Shown in pieces: positions 54,864 through 64,000 of a stretch of 64,000 bases of DNA. The notes under the pieces were generated by a model. That model had not been told where the DNA came from and searched no databases. It saw only the letters and a list, made by a program, of their open reading frames with translations. Both the position numbers and the translations under genes were made by a program. The DNA comes from Bacillus multifaciens (GTDB lineage: Bacteria > Bacillota > Bacilli > Bacillales > Bacillaceae_G). Each line of letters starts with the position of its first letter. Position 1 is the first letter of the stretch. The DNA is taken from positions 1 through 64,000 of the forward strand of contig NZ_JAVBXD010000025.1 of NCBI RefSeq assembly GCF_030756675.1, given 5' to 3'.

Positions 54864-55802
54864 ATGAACAGTATTGTTACGGTTGAAAAACTAGAAAAAA
54901 ATTATCATGAGAAAAAAGCTGTTGATGGCATCAATTTTGTAGTTAATAAGGGGGAAATCCTTGGATTATTAGGTCCGAATGGAGCAGGGAAAAGTACAAC
55001 GATAAATATTTTGGCTACTGTATTAGCAGCTGATAATGGCGAAATAACGATTTTGGGGCATGACTTAAGAAAAGATGTAAAACCGATAAAACAGGGGATT
55101 GGAATTGTTCCTCAGGATTTAGCAATTTATGAAGAAATTTCTGCCGAGAAAAATGTACGTTTTTTTGCAAGTCTTTATAAAGTAAAAGGAAAACAACTAG
55201 ATAGTATAGTCAAGGAGGCTTTGGAACTAGTAGGGCTTTATGATAAAAAAGACGATAAGCCCAAGACCTTTTCAGGCGGTATGAAACGAAGATTAAATAT
55301 TGCTTGTGCAATTGCCCATCAGCCACAACTTATTATCATGGATGAGCCGACAGTGGGTATTGATCCTCAATCAAGAAATCATATTTTAGAATCAATTAAA
55401 ACATTGAAAAATAGAGGCGCAACGGTTATCTATTCCACACACTACATGGAAGAAGTGGAAGCAATTTGTGATCGAATTATTATTATGAACGAGGGAAAGA
55501 TTATTGCAGAGGGGACAAAAGAAGAATTAAACCAAAAAGTGAGTGATGAAATTACTTATTATTTTTGTGTTAAAAATTTAAATAGATTAAGTGAACAGCA
55601 GTTGTATGAAATGAATGGGATAACAAAGGTTAAATTACTTGAGAATATGCTTGAGATAACTGCTGAAAAATCCAATGATAATCTAAATAGCATTATATCT
55701 TTAATGTTGGCAAGTGGTTGTGAAATTGAAAGCATGAGTAGTAAAGAGGCATCTTTAGAAACTACTTTCTTAGAATTGACAGGAAGAAGTTTAAGGGATT
55801 AG
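54864..55802 (+). CDS. ABC-2 type transporter ATP-binding protein
   Basis: The 312-residue protein has Walker A GPNGAGKSTT, the Q-loop region GIVPQDLAIYEEISA, signature FSGGMKRRLNIACAI, Walker B LIIMDEPTVGIDPQ and the H-loop STHYMEEVEAICDR. The C-terminal extension after residue 220 is typical of DrrA/CcmA-like drug or lipid exporters. AGGGGGATGG precedes the ATG. First of a three-gene exporter operon under a MarR-type operator; export of an antimicrobial or toxic compound is a plausible guess. Confidence 0.92.
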   Translation: MNSIVTVEKLEKNYHEKKAVDGINFVVNKGEILGLLGPNGAGKSTTINILATVLAADNGEITILGHDLRKDVKPIKQGIGIVPQDLAIYEEISAEKNVRFFASLYKVKGKQLDSIVKEALELVGLYDKKDDKPKTFSGGMKRRLNIACAIAHQPQLIIMDEPTVGIDPQSRNHILESIKTLKNRGATVIYSTHYMEEVEAICDRIIIMNEGKIIAEGTKEELNQKVSDEITYYFCVKNLNRLSEQQLYEMNGITKVKLLENMLEITAEKSNDNLNSIISLMLASGCEIESMSSKEASLETTFLELTGRSLRD

Positions 55803-60208: not shown

Positions 60209-61315
60209 GTGAAAAAAATAGATTTGCAGGATCGGTTAAGCGAGATTTTTCAACATTTACATGAGAATCCTGAAGTGAGCTGGAAGGAATATAATACGAC
60301 TGCCTATATTACGAAATTTTTAGAGGCAGAAGGCATTTCCTATAAAACGTTTGATGATTGTCCTGGTGTAATCGCAGAAATGGGGAGCGGGAAACCGGTT
60401 GTTGCGGTTCGAGGTGATATGGACGCATTATGGCAAGAGGTGGATGGAGAGTTTAAAGCAAATCATTCATGCGGTCATGATGCGCATATGACAATTGTGA
60501 TGGGGCTCATTTTACAGTTAAAACAAGCGAATTGGCAAACGGGAACAGTTCGATTTATTTTCCAGCCGGCAGAAGAAAAGGGAAGCGGCGCTCTCAAAAT
60601 GGTGGAGAAAGGTGTTGTGGATGATGTTGATTTCCTATTTGGCATTCACTTACGGCCAATAGAGGAATTATCATTGAAACAAGCAGCACCATCTATTCGG
60701 CACGGGGCAGCTGACTTTTTAGAAGCTCATATCGTTGGAACTGATGCTCACGGTGCACGCCCACATCAAGGTACGAACGCAATTGATGTCGTTACGATGA
60801 TTAATATGGGACTAAAAAATATATGGTTTTCGCCGCAATCTTCTTATTCCGTTAAAATGACGAGATGCCAAGCAGGCGGTGAAAGTTTAAATATTATTCC
60901 TGGGAACGCTCATTTTGCTTTAGATGTAAGGGCAGAGAACAATGGATTGTTGGAAGAGTTAAAGAAAAAGATCGAACACGTGATTCAATCAGCCGAATCA
61001 ATGGGTGTCAAGATTTCTTATGATTGGGTCGATTATGTACCTGGAGCAGTAGTATCAGAAGAAGCGGAACAGTTCCTTCGTAAGGGAATTCTGCAAACAT
61101 ATGGAGTAGAGGGCTGCACTCCGCCGCTTCGCACAGCGGGAAGTGATGATTTTCATTATTATACGGTGAAAAAGCCTCATTTAAAAGCAGTAATGCTAGG
61201 ATTAGGTGCGAATTTAAAACCGGGGTTACACCATCCTCACATGACATTTGATCGATCCTGTATATTAGATGGCGTAGAAATCTTGAAGAACACGGTATTA
61301 GAAGTTTTGAAATAG
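60209..61315 (+). CDS. M20-family amidohydrolase (N-acyl amino acid deacylase)
   Basis: The 368-residue zinc amidohydrolase has the metal ligands of the M20D group: VRGDMDALW, NHSCGHDAHM, QPAEEKGSGA and the C-terminal HHPHMTFD. The dimer-domain His lies in GTDAHGARPHQGT. Relatives cleave hippurate, N-acetyl or N-succinyl amino acids. Its place opposite the racemase and GNAT genes suggests it releases L-amino acids from N-succinyl forms. GTG 60209 is chosen because GGGAG lies about ten bases upstream; a GTG at 60188 precedes that site. Confidence 0.9.
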   Translation: MKKIDLQDRLSEIFQHLHENPEVSWKEYNTTAYITKFLEAEGISYKTFDDCPGVIAEMGSGKPVVAVRGDMDALWQEVDGEFKANHSCGHDAHMTIVMGLILQLKQANWQTGTVRFIFQPAEEKGSGALKMVEKGVVDDVDFLFGIHLRPIEELSLKQAAPSIRHGAADFLEAHIVGTDAHGARPHQGTNAIDVVTMINMGLKNIWFSPQSSYSVKMTRCQAGGESLNIIPGNAHFALDVRAENNGLLEELKKKIEHVIQSAESMGVKISYDWVDYVPGAVVSEEAEQFLRKGILQTYGVEGCTPPLRTAGSDDFHYYTVKKPHLKAVMLGLGANLKPGLHHPHMTFDRSCILDGVEILKNTVLEVLK

Positions 61316-61334
61316 TAAGATGGAATAAAAGTAA

Positions 61335-61370
61335 AAAAACAATCCTTCATTAAAAGAGGATTGTTTTTTT
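61335..61370. terminator. Terminator between M20 gene and aqpZ
   Basis: AAACAATCCT and AGGATTGTTT form a stem followed by TTTTATC. It lies between convergent genes. Confidence 0.85.
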
Positions 61371-61391
61371 ATCTCATAAATACTGAAGATT

Positions 61392-62057
61392 CTATTTTTC
61401 AGTATTTAAAATAAATTTCCCTACAAGAGCTGCTACAATGCCACCAAGGATTGGAGCAACGATGAATACCCATAGTTGAGAGAGTGCTTCGCCGCCAACG
61501 AATATAGCTGGTGCAATGCTGCGTGCAGGGTTAACAGATGTTCCAGTTAACGGAATACCTAATAAGTGAACTAATACTAATGTGAAACCAATTACAAGTC
61601 CAGCTAAAGCAGGATTTCCTTGTTTACCCGTTACAGCAACAATAACTAGAATGAACACGAATGTTAAAATGAATTCTACTAAAAATGCTCCACATACATC
61701 TAAACTTCCAAAACTATTTTGTCCTAAATTATCTAAAGATAGAGTAGTAGATTTTAAAATCGTTATTAGTGTTACAGTCCCTAATAAAGCACCTGCAATC
61801 TGAGCTAATACATAATAGATAAGTTCTGTTGCGTCTATTCTTTTATTGATAAACATAGCAACTGATACTGCTGGATTAATATGACATCCAGAAACTGTTC
61901 CGATGCTATAGGCCATTGCGACGATAGATAATCCGAACGCCATTGCGATTCCCAGTGTTCCGATCCCTTCAATTCCACCACCAATTACAGCTACTCCAGT
62001 TCCGAATAATACAAGTACAAATGTACCAATAAATTCAGCGATTGTCTTTTTTACCAT
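61392..62057 (-). CDS. aqpZ: Aquaporin Z-like MIP-family channel
   Basis: The 221-residue protein has six membrane segments and the two half-helix NPA motifs, GCHINPAVS (first half) and GTSVNPARS (second half) with the selectivity-filter arginine right after the second. AEFIGTFVLVLFGTG opens the chain as in AqpZ. The absence of the Asp found after the second NPA in glycerol facilitators (Arg-Ser here) fits a water channel. ACAGGAGG lies nine bases upstream of the ATG. Confidence 0.92.
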   Translation of the reverse strand: MVKKTIAEFIGTFVLVLFGTGVAVIGGGIEGIGTLGIAMAFGLSIVAMAYSIGTVSGCHINPAVSVAMFINKRIDATELIYYVLAQIAGALLGTVTLITILKSTTLSLDNLGQNSFGSLDVCGAFLVEFILTFVFILVIVAVTGKQGNPALAGLVIGFTLVLVHLLGIPLTGTSVNPARSIAPAIFVGGEALSQLWVFIVAPILGGIVAALVGKFILNTEK

Positions 62058-62914
62058 AATTTACCTCCTGTTGATACGCATGAGACGTAATTATAACATA
62101 AGTATCAGCCATTTAAAGCGTAAACGATAATAAACCACTATTCGAATAATTCAAGACAAGGGAGCTTGATCCGAATTGTCTCTTAGTGGATTTCTTGTGG
62201 TTCTTCATTTTAAAGATAAAAATGAAATATCTAGAATCGTTGGTCCGTTGACCAGAAGAGAATAATATATATGAAAAATAGTTCTAAGATATAAGAAAAA
62301 TAATTCTTAATTATTATATTCTGATTCTAGATGAAATGGACGTGTAGACGGAATAACTTTATCTTTGAAGCTTAAAAAGGTAGAAAAGGTACACTTTTAC
62401 AAATAGGTTTATTCCTTATAAAAAGATATTCGTAAATTTTCTATACCTTTACAAATAAAGTGAAACTTCCATCAGTGGGGGTTTTCTTCATCCCCCACTG
62501 ATGGTTAGTTGAACCAATCGGGCTTTTACGGGCAGTTATCCCCCACCTATCTTCTTCGCTTCTCTCTGAATCTTGAGGTGGGGGTCTTACTGCCCGTTAA
62601 TGCGGGATAAACTCTCAAAGACAATTGTTTTGGGTAAATAGGTATTGAATTAGTTACTTTAATAATGTGACATCAGCTTTATAATTACTTTGCGCTTTCT
62701 GGCACATTTGAACCTTACACTCCGATAACCAAATTTTCAAATAGACTAAGCACAAAAAACAATCTTTAAATCTTATTTTTTCATAACCTAGTTTTTTATT
62801 GGTTTCAAAATTCTAAAAAAATATTATTTTCAAACTATAATTTGACAAGAAAACTCTTTTATGGAAAAATATACATTGTGATAATTTTCTAATTAATGAG
62901 AGAAGATGAGAAAA
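62058..62914. other. Gene-free stretch before the peptide gene
   Basis: These 857 bases contain no gene I can support. 62457-62609 is a dispersed repeat. The AT content rises sharply after 62620. TTGACA at 62842-62847 is a good -35 for the small peptide gene at 62915, but the -10 is unclear (AAATAT at 62867). A TGGCAC at 62700 is not followed by a proper -12. Confidence 0.5.
62457..62609 (-). repeat. GGGCAGTAAGACCCCCACC-type intergenic repeat, intact
   Basis: Read on the minus strand: TCCCGCATTAACGGGCAGTA, ACCCCCACCTCAAGATTCAG, GATAGGTGGGGGATAACTGC, AAAAGCCCGATTGG, then a CAGTGGGGG...CCCCCACTG hairpin and GGAAGTTTCACTTT. This is the uninterrupted form of the repeat at 45879-46154; fragments occur at 118-160 and 54685-54724. 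Confidence 0.72.
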
Positions 62915-62995
62915 ATGAAAATTTTTAAACCTAGCGAAAGCGAGTACACAAATCGTGTTAATTCAGAACATGGTGAGACTTCTCCATCAAAATAA
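62915..62995 (+). CDS. Candidate RiPP precursor peptide
   Basis: The 26-residue frame starts MKIFKPSESEYTNRV and ends NSEHGETSPSK; an ATG at 62906 would add MRK. The N-terminal part is charged and could be a leader, the C-terminal part is rich in Ser, Thr, Glu and Gly and has no Cys. Positioned 86 bases before a SagB-type oxidoreductase, with an attenuator hairpin between, it fits a peptide that is modified after translation. The ribosome site (GAAGATGAG) is modest. No family match can be claimed. Confidence 0.5.
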   Translation: MKIFKPSESEYTNRVNSEHGETSPSK

Positions 62996-63006
62996 TTGAA
63001 TTGCTT

Positions 63007-63040
63007 AAATGACTGCTCTAGTAGGGCAGTCATTTATTGT
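63007..63040 (+). terminator. Attenuator-like hairpin between peptide gene and SagB-like gene
   Basis: AAATGACTGC and GCAGTCATTT form a perfect 10-bp stem with a 9-base loop, followed by ATTGTT. A weak T run suggests partial termination, which would give more peptide mRNA than enzyme mRNA. Confidence 0.7.
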
Positions 63041-63081
63041 TAAAAAAGATATACATATTTTTTAAGTAGGGAGACATTGAT

Positions 63082-64000
63082 ATGAAGTTGAAAATATCTG
63101 AAAATATGATATATTTTTGGAAAAATGGTCATCTCATAATAGATGATTTTGTTAGACACGAACAATATAGCCTAGAGCTTTCGGTTTTCCCTATCTTAGG
63201 TTTATTCAAAGAATGGAACGACCCTGATAGTGCGTATCTACAGCTACAGAAAGATCAAACTTTATCTTTAACAAGAAACGAAATGACGGAAATAATTAAA
63301 AATCTTCGAGAAGTCCATATATTAATAGAAAAAGAAAGTCCAGAGGATATGAAGCTTACAAATTGGAAAGAATGGGGAACGCCTGCTAAATACTTTCATT
63401 TTAATAGAAGACTGCTTCATAAAGATAATTATTTAGATGTAAATCAAGACTATGAAAGATTAATCAATAAGAAGCAAAATGTAAAAGCACCGTCTATATA
63501 TAAAATATATGATAATGTAGAAGAAATACCATTACCTACTCCTGATTTTAAAAAAGAAGGAAGCTTCCTAGATGTCCTTTTGAAAAGACAAACTATACGA
63601 TCTTTCTCAGAAAAACCTATTACTCTAATTGAATTATCTTCAATTCTTTATTTTGTTTGGGGAGCACAGTCTTGTAAAAGAGATTTTGGAGTTGGTGCAA
63701 CTTTCTTTAAAACGAGCCCTTCTGGTGGTGCTAGACATCCTATAGAAGTATACCCTTATATATCTAACGTAACAGGAATAAAAGAAGGTTTATATCACTA
63801 CAATGTTCAAAATCATTCATTGAATGTGATTAACAAAGAAAAAATAACAGATATTATTGATATGGCTGCAGGACAGAAATATGTAAAAGGTGCATCTGTA
63901 CTCTTTTTTTATACAGCATGTTTAGAACGACCTATGTGGAAATACAAAACTCCAAGGGTATATCGTATTGTTATGATGGATGTAGGTCATTTAAGTCAAA
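63082..64000 (+). CDS. SagB/McbC-type FMN oxidoreductase (peptide maturation), 3' end cut
   Basis: The frame from ATG 63082 stays open for 306 codons to the window edge. The first 150 residues are a separate domain with no family I recognise. From about 175 comes the nitroreductase-like SagB fold: LLKRQTIRSFSEKPI, then the hallmark SPSGGARHPIEVYPY and LYHYNVQNHSLNV. RVYRIVMMDVGHLSQ near the edge is the usual helix of this family. SagB enzymes oxidise azolines to azoles or otherwise dehydrogenate peptides. AGGGAG precedes the start by eight bases. It lies after a short peptide gene; partners would lie to the right. Confidence 0.88.
   Translation, partial: MKLKISENMIYFWKNGHLIIDDFVRHEQYSLELSVFPILGLFKEWNDPDSAYLQLQKDQTLSLTRNEMTEIIKNLREVHILIEKESPEDMKLTNWKEWGTPAKYFHFNRRLLHKDNYLDVNQDYERLINKKQNVKAPSIYKIYDNVEEIPLPTPDFKKEGSFLDVLLKRQTIRSFSEKPITLIELSSILYFVWGAQSCKRDFGVGATFFKTSPSGGARHPIEVYPYISNVTGIKEGLYHYNVQNHSLNVINKEKITDIIDMAAGQKYVKGASVLFFYTACLERPMWKYKTPRVYRIVMMDVGHLSQ

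Follow-up and report, generated by a model that had tools for sequence, protein, structure and literature searches.

A putative minimal RiPP operon with a 26-residue precursor and a SagB-family flavoenzyme in Bacillus multifaciens

SagB-type enzymes are mostly read as finishers of azoles that follow a YcaO protein. What such an enzyme may do beside a tiny gene of its own is the question raised by the right end of a 64,000-nucleotide stretch of Bacillus multifaciens DNA (contig NZ_JAVBXD010000025.1, assembly GCF_030756675.1, positions 1 to 64,000, forward strand; the whole stretch is called the window here), where an open reading frame (ORF) of 26 codons is followed by a hairpin and by the frame of a SagB-family oxidoreductase. 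An earlier note, made from the letters of the window, had taken this arrangement for a peptide-modification operon, and this view is now backed by one close relative, Priestia sp. J2, in which the ORF is in frame, a hairpin lies between ORF and enzyme gene, and an exporter gene comes after. Our best explanation, to which we give a probability of about one half, is a minimal operon for a ribosomally synthesized and post-translationally modified peptide (RiPP), comprising a 26-residue precursor, an attenuator-like hairpin, one SagB flavoenzyme that would desaturate a residue, and export by a major facilitator superfamily (MFS) transporter. The operon probably makes a small modified peptide by little-explored chemistry.

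The short reading frame and its counterpart in Priestia

The 26-codon ORF (MKIFKPSESEYTNRVNSEHGETSPSK, 62915-62995, plus strand) is very likely real, as a plasmid of Priestia sp. J2 carries it too. An in-frame ATG upstream at 62906 would lengthen the peptide to 29 residues (62906-62995) by adding MRK; the Shine-Dalgarno-like AGAGAAG at 62899-62905 (plus strand) is better spaced for the ATG at 62915 (9-nt gap), which favours the start chosen in the earlier note. At the equivalent place Priestia sp. J2 has AAAGGGGG. Further upstream, a promoter-like site (62842-62870, plus strand) reads TTGACA, 17 nt with a TG before the second hexamer, and AAAAAT, with 10 of 12 consensus matches. A site of the same layout aligns with it at 11750-11778 of L002, the stretch fetched from Priestia sp. 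J2 plasmid pA. It is no more than a match to the consensus; six sites of this class occur in the window stretch vs. 3.1 in shuffles, and two vs. 3.7 in Priestia.

When the six-frame translations of 72,556 plasmid records were searched with the 26 residues using tblastn (E limit 10), plasmid pA was the sole matching record (E 9e-5). The match covers 26 of 26 residues at 73.1% identity (19/26), with the same length and frame, in an unannotated ORF about 100 nt upstream of a SagB gene. The final nine residues, EHGETSPSK, are identical in the two peptides, and Phe4, Tyr11 and His19 are the conserved aromatic residues. Over 27 codons including the stop, four are changed synonymously and seven non-synonymously, with no indel and no stop between the two ORFs. 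Counted after Nei and Gojobori, the changes amount to 5 at 15.5 synonymous sites and 7 at 62.5 non-synonymous sites, which gives proportions of changed sites, pS and pN, of 0.32 and 0.11 (Fisher p 0.06, rounded counts). At the DNA level the peptide gene is more conserved than SagB (85.2% identity in the ORF vs. 75.2% in the SagB part), and 21 nt around the stop codon are identical. The expectation that the ORF would stay unbroken beside the oxidoreductase in relatives thus holds in the one close relative found (1/1). The absence of Cys, which had also been stressed, is true of the window peptide, with Thr22, Ser23 and Ser25 among its last five residues; as a conserved trait it has to be given up, because the residue at position 7, a Ser in the window peptide, is replaced by Cys in Priestia.

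The Priestia operon (NZ_CP086209.1, 24703-27215) runs from the unannotated peptide gene and its hairpin through SagB (L002 12001-13110) to an MFS transporter gene that directly follows (L002 13113-14336); after a gap comes a nickel ATP-binding cassette (ABC) transporter operon. By analogy with this copy, an MFS exporter gene may also lie beyond the window end.

In the window, the attenuator-like hairpin between ORF and enzyme gene (63006-63036, plus strand) has a 14-bp stem, a 3-nt loop and a weak T tail, and its fold energy of -18.6 kcal/mol (z -4.64) is reached by none of 200 shuffles. The earlier description of a hairpin with a perfect 10-bp stem and a weak T run after the short ORF was right for the window. 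The Priestia hairpin at the equivalent place passes the terminator rule, whereas the window hairpin fails it because it has too few T residues. An Rfam search of 61300-64000 gave no match up to E 0.5. In the Priestia plasmid, 4 of 97 upstream gaps pass a loose rule (short ATG ORF, Shine-Dalgarno sequence and a hairpin of -12 kcal/mol or better), among them that of SagB, which has the strongest hairpin.

The SagB-family enzyme and its likely chemistry

The frame at 63082-64000 (plus strand) encodes the first 306 residues of a SagB/ThcOx-family flavin mononucleotide (FMN) oxidoreductase, is open at the window end and carries the stretch SPSGGARHPIEVYPY. That it is of SagB type, as proposed earlier, agrees with the SagB domain model TIGR03605, on which the 306-aa fragment scores 93.2 bits (cut-off 78.4) and the Priestia enzyme 136.7 bits; PF00881 gives 25.1 bits on the window enzyme (cut-off 23.5). 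TIGR04511, an exception model named ‘putative peptide maturation dehydrogenase’, stays at 115.9 bits, below its cut-off of 240. With 71.6% identity across 306 of 306 residues, the Priestia SagB is the only one more than 60% identical to the window's among 84 matching records in the plasmid collection. The full Priestia enzyme has 369 aa with PF00881 alone over its Pfam cut-off; a fusion to a multinuclear non-heme iron-dependent oxidative enzyme (MNIO), as in PflD-type proteins, is not present in it. Solved structures matched by the oxidase domain are 3eo7, ThcOx/CyaGox (5lq4, 8pz5), BmdC (7ly4-7ly7) and McbC (6gos).

McbC-type enzymes have a Lys-Tyr pair. R169, R173 and W286-K287-Y288 do not vary among eight aligned sequences, one of which is the window's. 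The equivalent of WKY is YRY in the first SagB of an Anoxybacillus locus and AKY in one Halorussus enzyme, so the Trp and Lys are not universal; the second enzymes of these two loci diverge further around this place. In BmdC, FMN is bound via Arg145, Arg146, Ser147 and Arg149, and Tyr260 is a conserved residue of the active site (PMC8795117; this and all other papers are cited from excerpts); Tyr288 of the window enzyme may be the counterpart of Tyr260.

The N-terminal domain (about residues 1-100; 63082-63384, plus strand) is predicted to be a winged helix resembling a RiPP recognition element (RRE). The earlier note had seen here a 150-residue unknown domain. A likely parallel is the N-terminus of BmdC, which has a 96-residue RRE-like winged-helix domain and a 45-residue wrapping loop before its oxidase domain at 142-325 (PMC8795117); the layout of the window enzyme agrees with it by length and place. 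RREs fused to dehydrogenases of cyanobactin, linear azol(in)e-containing peptide (LAP) and thiopeptide clusters have been described and may be vestigial (PMC7470986). We call the domain RRE-like by place and length only, because direct fold tests were weak or negative. Among 11 scanned N-termini, Lant_dehydr_N is hit by one (E 0.0021) and a lasso PqqD model by another (E 0.0041), weak matches that DUF4240 equals (0.0018). The LanB profile PF04738 falls on the N-terminus of an Anoxybacillus SagB with E 3.9e-4 but stays below its cut-off, and in the window enzyme this region weakly matches a lanthipeptide-leader model (E 0.023). Profile searches of the PDB with the N-termini gave nothing under E 0.01. 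Chains above that value include a radical S-adenosylmethionine (SAM) protein, transcription regulators and cullins, which we take to be winged-helix folds, but also unrelated TRIM proteins and ribosomal L23. The absence of Cys and an unknown N-terminal domain are therefore weak reasons for calling the operon unclassifiable, as the former is not conserved and the latter has a likely parallel. What is distinctive is rather that SagB stands next to a tiny conserved precursor gene and, in the single relative available, lacks a neighbouring YcaO.

A YcaO profile found no match in six of six plasmid records (Priestia, Ligilactobacillus, Roseateles, Streptomyces, Maritalea and Anoxybacillus; host chromosomes not searched), while its control was positive in 5 of 14 genomes. 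Nor does the annotation of plasmid pA (147,924 bp, 162 features) list a YcaO. Azole formation would thus lack its usual first enzyme, and the oxazoles from Ser or Thr suggested in the earlier note are unlikely; as a first choice they were set aside. For graspetides, no ATP-grasp ligase is annotated beside the Priestia operon; the only proteins of plasmid pA named as radical SAM or ATP-grasp lie near arsenic genes, about 60 kb away round the circle, the ATP-grasp protein at about 61 kb. For peptide aminoacyl-tRNA ligase (PEARL) or class I lanthipeptide pathways, no LanB-like protein (PF04738) exceeded the cut-off in the six records (0/6), a search of unproven sensitivity because its control was positive in 0 of 14 genomes. 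Chemistry of the PEARL/BhaC1 type was rejected, as BhaC1 is described as a tetratricopeptide repeat (TPR)-domain FMN enzyme and no LanB-like protein was over the cut-off. Nitrilobacillins were also rejected, their enzymes being different (PMC13060819).

That the 26-residue peptide is the substrate of the SagB enzyme we consider likely; desaturation as the chemistry is a more tentative proposal. The hairpin would end most transcripts and so yield much precursor and little enzyme. The N-terminal RRE-like domain would hold the N-terminal half of the peptide, and the FMN domain would abstract two hydrogens from one of the residues of the conserved C-terminal half (N-x-EHGETSPSK). Since no YcaO cyclodehydratase accompanies the Priestia copy, the product would most likely be a dehydroamino-acid peptide, formed by alpha,beta-desaturation as with PflD, rather than an azole. 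This peptide may be trimmed by a general peptidase, and its export would fall to the MFS pump.

Comparable loci and competing explanations

Eighteen regions around SagB matches or remnants in plasmid records were chosen by hand (L002-L005, L008-L015, L018, L019, L023-L026), and the upstream gap was scanned in ten of them, with ORFs picked by eye from listings that included weaker ORFs. A Shine-Dalgarno-led ORF of 25-42 codons stands directly before the cassette in seven of the ten gaps, i.e. in Priestia, Ligilactobacillus, Maritalea, Roseateles, Streptomyces NBC_01281, Anoxybacillus (before the first SagB gene, with a GTG start) and Nonomuraea; none was found in R. rhododendri and Rhizobium sp. 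WYJ-E13, where a 113-codon ORF stands instead, or in Halorussus. Apart from Priestia, comparable sets, in which a Shine-Dalgarno-led ORF of 25-41 codons precedes a hairpin and genes that include SagB, occur in five further plasmid records without YcaO matches (Ligilactobacillus, Maritalea, Roseateles, Streptomyces, Anoxybacillus). When the interval after the short ORF was folded (n=8, window included), z was -2.4 or lower in seven of eight and -1.67 in Nonomuraea. Immediately downstream of SagB there is an MFS gene in Priestia, Maritalea and Streptomyces; in Ligilactobacillus one small gene stands between the two, and in Nonomuraea the YcaO and TfuA genes do. No MFS gene adjoins SagB in Roseateles, and the membrane protein that ends the Anoxybacillus locus has no Pfam match. 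Between short ORF and SagB lie radical SAM and methyltransferase genes in Streptomyces, and an ATP-grasp-like gene in Ligilactobacillus (PF21068, 25.0 bits, cut-off 27).

Several of these loci deserve a description of their own. In Ligilactobacillus salivarius (L003:6732-10259), a 41-aa ORF and a hairpin are followed by an MvdD-like ATP-grasp protein (below the Pfam cut-off), SagB, a 92-aa protein and an MFS protein (PF07690, 71.1 bits). An E-x-E-Y-x-x-R motif noticed by eye in this peptide and the window's missed the 0.05 limit against shuffles and was dropped. The Anoxybacillus amylolyticus plasmid (L023:4515-10488) has a 39-aa ORF, a hairpin with z -10.7 and several SagB paralogues: the first SagB is succeeded by an IS630-type gene, a second full SagB, a 277-aa protein that looks SagB-like by eye, and the membrane protein. 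Unannotated short ORFs precede SagB and MFS genes in Maritalea (L013:5423-5500) and radical SAM, methyltransferase, SagB and MFS genes in Streptomyces sp. NBC_01281 (L011:3406-3507). Their peptides share the C-terminus LD(V/L)NGxC (0 of 1000 shuffles, 28 pairs tested) and are a candidate precursor family of their own, ending in Cys; one further peptide pair reached 0.02, which 28 pairs can yield by chance. Two Rhizobium plasmids (L004:7537-11396 and L009:5503-9381, one annotated pTi6.2) carry, alike in both strains, a 113-codon ORF, SagB, a protein with an amidase-like end (PF01425 in L004, 27.7 bits, cut-off 27) and an MFS gene. An archaeal Halorussus plasmid (L026:1-5729) has an adjacent SagB/nitroreductase pair beside a divergent carbamoyltransferase and MFS gene, near siderophore genes. 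Phage records contain one distant match to the oxidase domain and nothing that matches the first 150 residues of the Priestia enzyme; viral contigs searched with the SagB proteins and a peptide pattern contained no relative. A scan of genome contigs, which required exact short peptide matches, yielded no more than a distant SagB from an Adlerbacteria genome; by eye, a frame next to it resembles YcaO.

A bolder and rather doubtful extension would make the operon one of the smallest RiPP pathways seen, with a new desaturation on the Cys-independent EHGETSPSK, e.g. at His19. It would then stand for a wider unannotated set of cassettes of short ORF, hairpin and SagB that is spread over Bacillota, Pseudomonadota and Actinomycetota. 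Such cassettes would lack YcaO, often include an MFS gene and perhaps have another second enzyme (ATP-grasp-like, radical SAM plus methyltransferase, or further SagB copies) added.

Other explanations have to be weighed. A leader ORF, a terminator-like hairpin and an MFS exporter form a known layout of induced efflux genes. If the locus were of this kind, the short ORF would encode a regulatory leader peptide whose translation, or ribosome stalling at its conserved end, controls hairpin read-through into a detoxifying oxidoreductase-exporter operon. The 21 identical nucleotides around the stop codon in both species would suit such a device. So would the behaviour of the hairpin's 5' arm, parts of which pair upstream when the 3' arm is omitted (P up to 0.57 in the window and 0.79 in Priestia), and the pairing of the Priestia ORF end with the ribosome-binding region, which only 15 of 1000 shuffles equal. 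With the hairpin whole, however, no competing fold is seen (the two arms pair at mean P 0.97-0.98, the 5' arm with upstream RNA at 0.001 or less), the ribosome-site pairing of the window is no better than that of shuffles (308 of 1000 as good), and a SagB-family enzyme normally acts on a peptide, for which the Priestia operon offers no other candidate that we could see. We regard this explanation as improbable. More improbable is a metallophore, which after cleavage in front of residue 17 would begin with X-E-H, the amino-terminal copper- and nickel-binding (ATCUN) pattern. An MFS rather than an ABC exporter suggests a small cargo, as with MccC of microcin C, and the Priestia operon lies between nickel-transport operons, adjoining an opine-metallophore set and a permease/TIGR03943 pair. 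Nevertheless, no metal-uptake gene was seen by eye among window ORFs of at least 130 codons at 40-62 kb, no cleavage enzyme was seen, and a plasmid neighbourhood can be accidental.

An ordinary azole cluster, of the LAP or thiazole/oxazole-modified microcin (TOMM) kind, would have its YcaO and leader-binding protein encoded beyond the right end of the window or at another place in the genome, and SagB would oxidise oxazolines on Thr22, Ser23 or Ser25. This is the textbook role of SagB (PMC8939145), Thr and Ser are present in the conserved tail, and Nonomuraea has a short ORF, SagB, YcaO, TfuA and MFS gene in one locus. In the 71.6%-identical Priestia copy, though, the MFS gene follows SagB, and the 148-kb plasmid has no YcaO match (chromosome not searched), which makes such a cluster unlikely here. 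The operon of precursor and desaturating SagB enzyme that we prefer has to face several objections as well. The collections searched hold a single close relative, so peptide conservation rests on one comparison with a Fisher p of 0.06. The Priestia YcaO negative covers the plasmid and not the chromosome, and the operon right of the window end is unseen, where a YcaO could lie. In Nonomuraea a YcaO (219.5 bits) adjoins a SagB that follows a short ORF; since this locus carries both YcaO and TfuA, the short-ORF layout also occurs where YcaO is present. The annotation shows no leader peptidase next to the Priestia genes, and the short peptides of the other records are unlike in sequence, barring the one clear pair. 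For the predicted N-terminal fold, the window's own N-terminus had no RRE-type match (best AnfO_nitrog, E 0.013), hhalign against three TOMM leader-binding N-termini was negative, and AlphaFold run without an alignment was too poor for a fold (predicted local distance difference test, pLDDT, 31.2 for the 306-aa fragment and 37.8 for residues 1-101).

Surroundings and known systems

By its gene content the window is probably chromosomal, of a kind seen in the B. cereus group. Left of the window operon, Pfam assigns a minus-strand gene to the aquaporin type (PF00230) and names an M20 peptidase as well as a mandelate-racemase-type enzyme; a protein of 231 aa there matches nothing in Pfam at E 0.001. 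At 54864 there is an ABC ATPase, and no RiPP gene was seen by eye among window ORFs of at least 130 codons at 40-62 kb. Between the aquaporin-type gene and the operon is a palindrome-rich dispersed element (62453-62611), a copy of which stands in three places of a Pseudalkalibacillus plasmid (82.7% identical), while plasmids of Peribacillus (two) and Klebsiella (one) contain shorter matches. We take the element for the right-hand end of an IS605/TnpB element that lacks its gene. In Priestia, the other flank of the operon holds a divergent permease/TIGR03943 pair and a second nickel plus opine-metallophore set. Upstream of this pair, nearer to the permease than to the peptide operon, is the palindromic AACGTAACAGTTACG (L002 11344-11364), presumably similar to a Zur box. 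Among other plasmid records, the protein most similar to the Priestia exporter (33%) is an MFS protein of Deinococcus radiodurans plasmid CP1 (L016:1-7923), where it follows radical SAM, carbamoyltransferase, TldD/PmbA and hypothetical genes.

In the open-access literature of PubMed Central, outside which most subscription papers lie, the excerpts seen contained no description of the peptide family or of a peptide-SagB-MFS operon. With one precursor, one enzyme and one exporter, the locus is a clean one for learning what lone SagB enzymes do, and what is learned there could direct genome-mining tools to unannotated ORFs of 25-40 codons before lone SagB genes.

Among the systems at hand, the Priestia operon has a 73% identical precursor and a 71.6% identical enzyme, and promoter-like site, hairpin and order are kept; unlike the window operon, it lies on a plasmid beside nickel and metallophore genes, has Cys at position 7 of its peptide, and is itself uncharacterised. 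Standard LAP clusters are mentioned in a survey of the B. cereus group (PMC10672896, excerpt). The ATP-grasp ‘branch 6’ loci of a graspetide survey (PMC8939145) have precursors without known leader motifs (clusters 367 and 1115), most of them with a SagB-like nitroreductase, and the Ligilactobacillus locus resembles them; in contrast, no ATP-grasp gene adjoins the Priestia operon. BmdC, the bacillamide oxidase, and ThcOx, the cyanobactin oxidase, have RRE-like N-terminal domain(s) before an FMN oxidase domain, as predicted for the window enzyme, whose oxidase domain matches theirs in sequence, but BmdC serves a nonribosomal peptide synthetase (NRPS) and ThcOx cyanobactin (patellamide-type) biosynthesis. 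By analogy, the closest precedent for the desaturation step would be PflD of the Pseudomonas pfl cluster, whose nitroreductase domain makes Z-dehydrophenylalanine (-2 Da) without YcaO (PMC12636437). Its authors call nitroreductases without YcaO rare and functionally uncharacterised in this 2025 preprint, and suggest that others may form different dehydroamino acids. In strain Os17, where homologues of sagA, sagC and sagD were not found, a gene annotated as SagB-type (PMC7726476, excerpt) is in our assumption the PflD counterpart. PflD differs in its fusion to an MNIO, and the pfl cluster in its HEXXH and GNAT genes; what it shares with the operon proposed here is a flavin nitroreductase that works on a RiPP precursor without YcaO.

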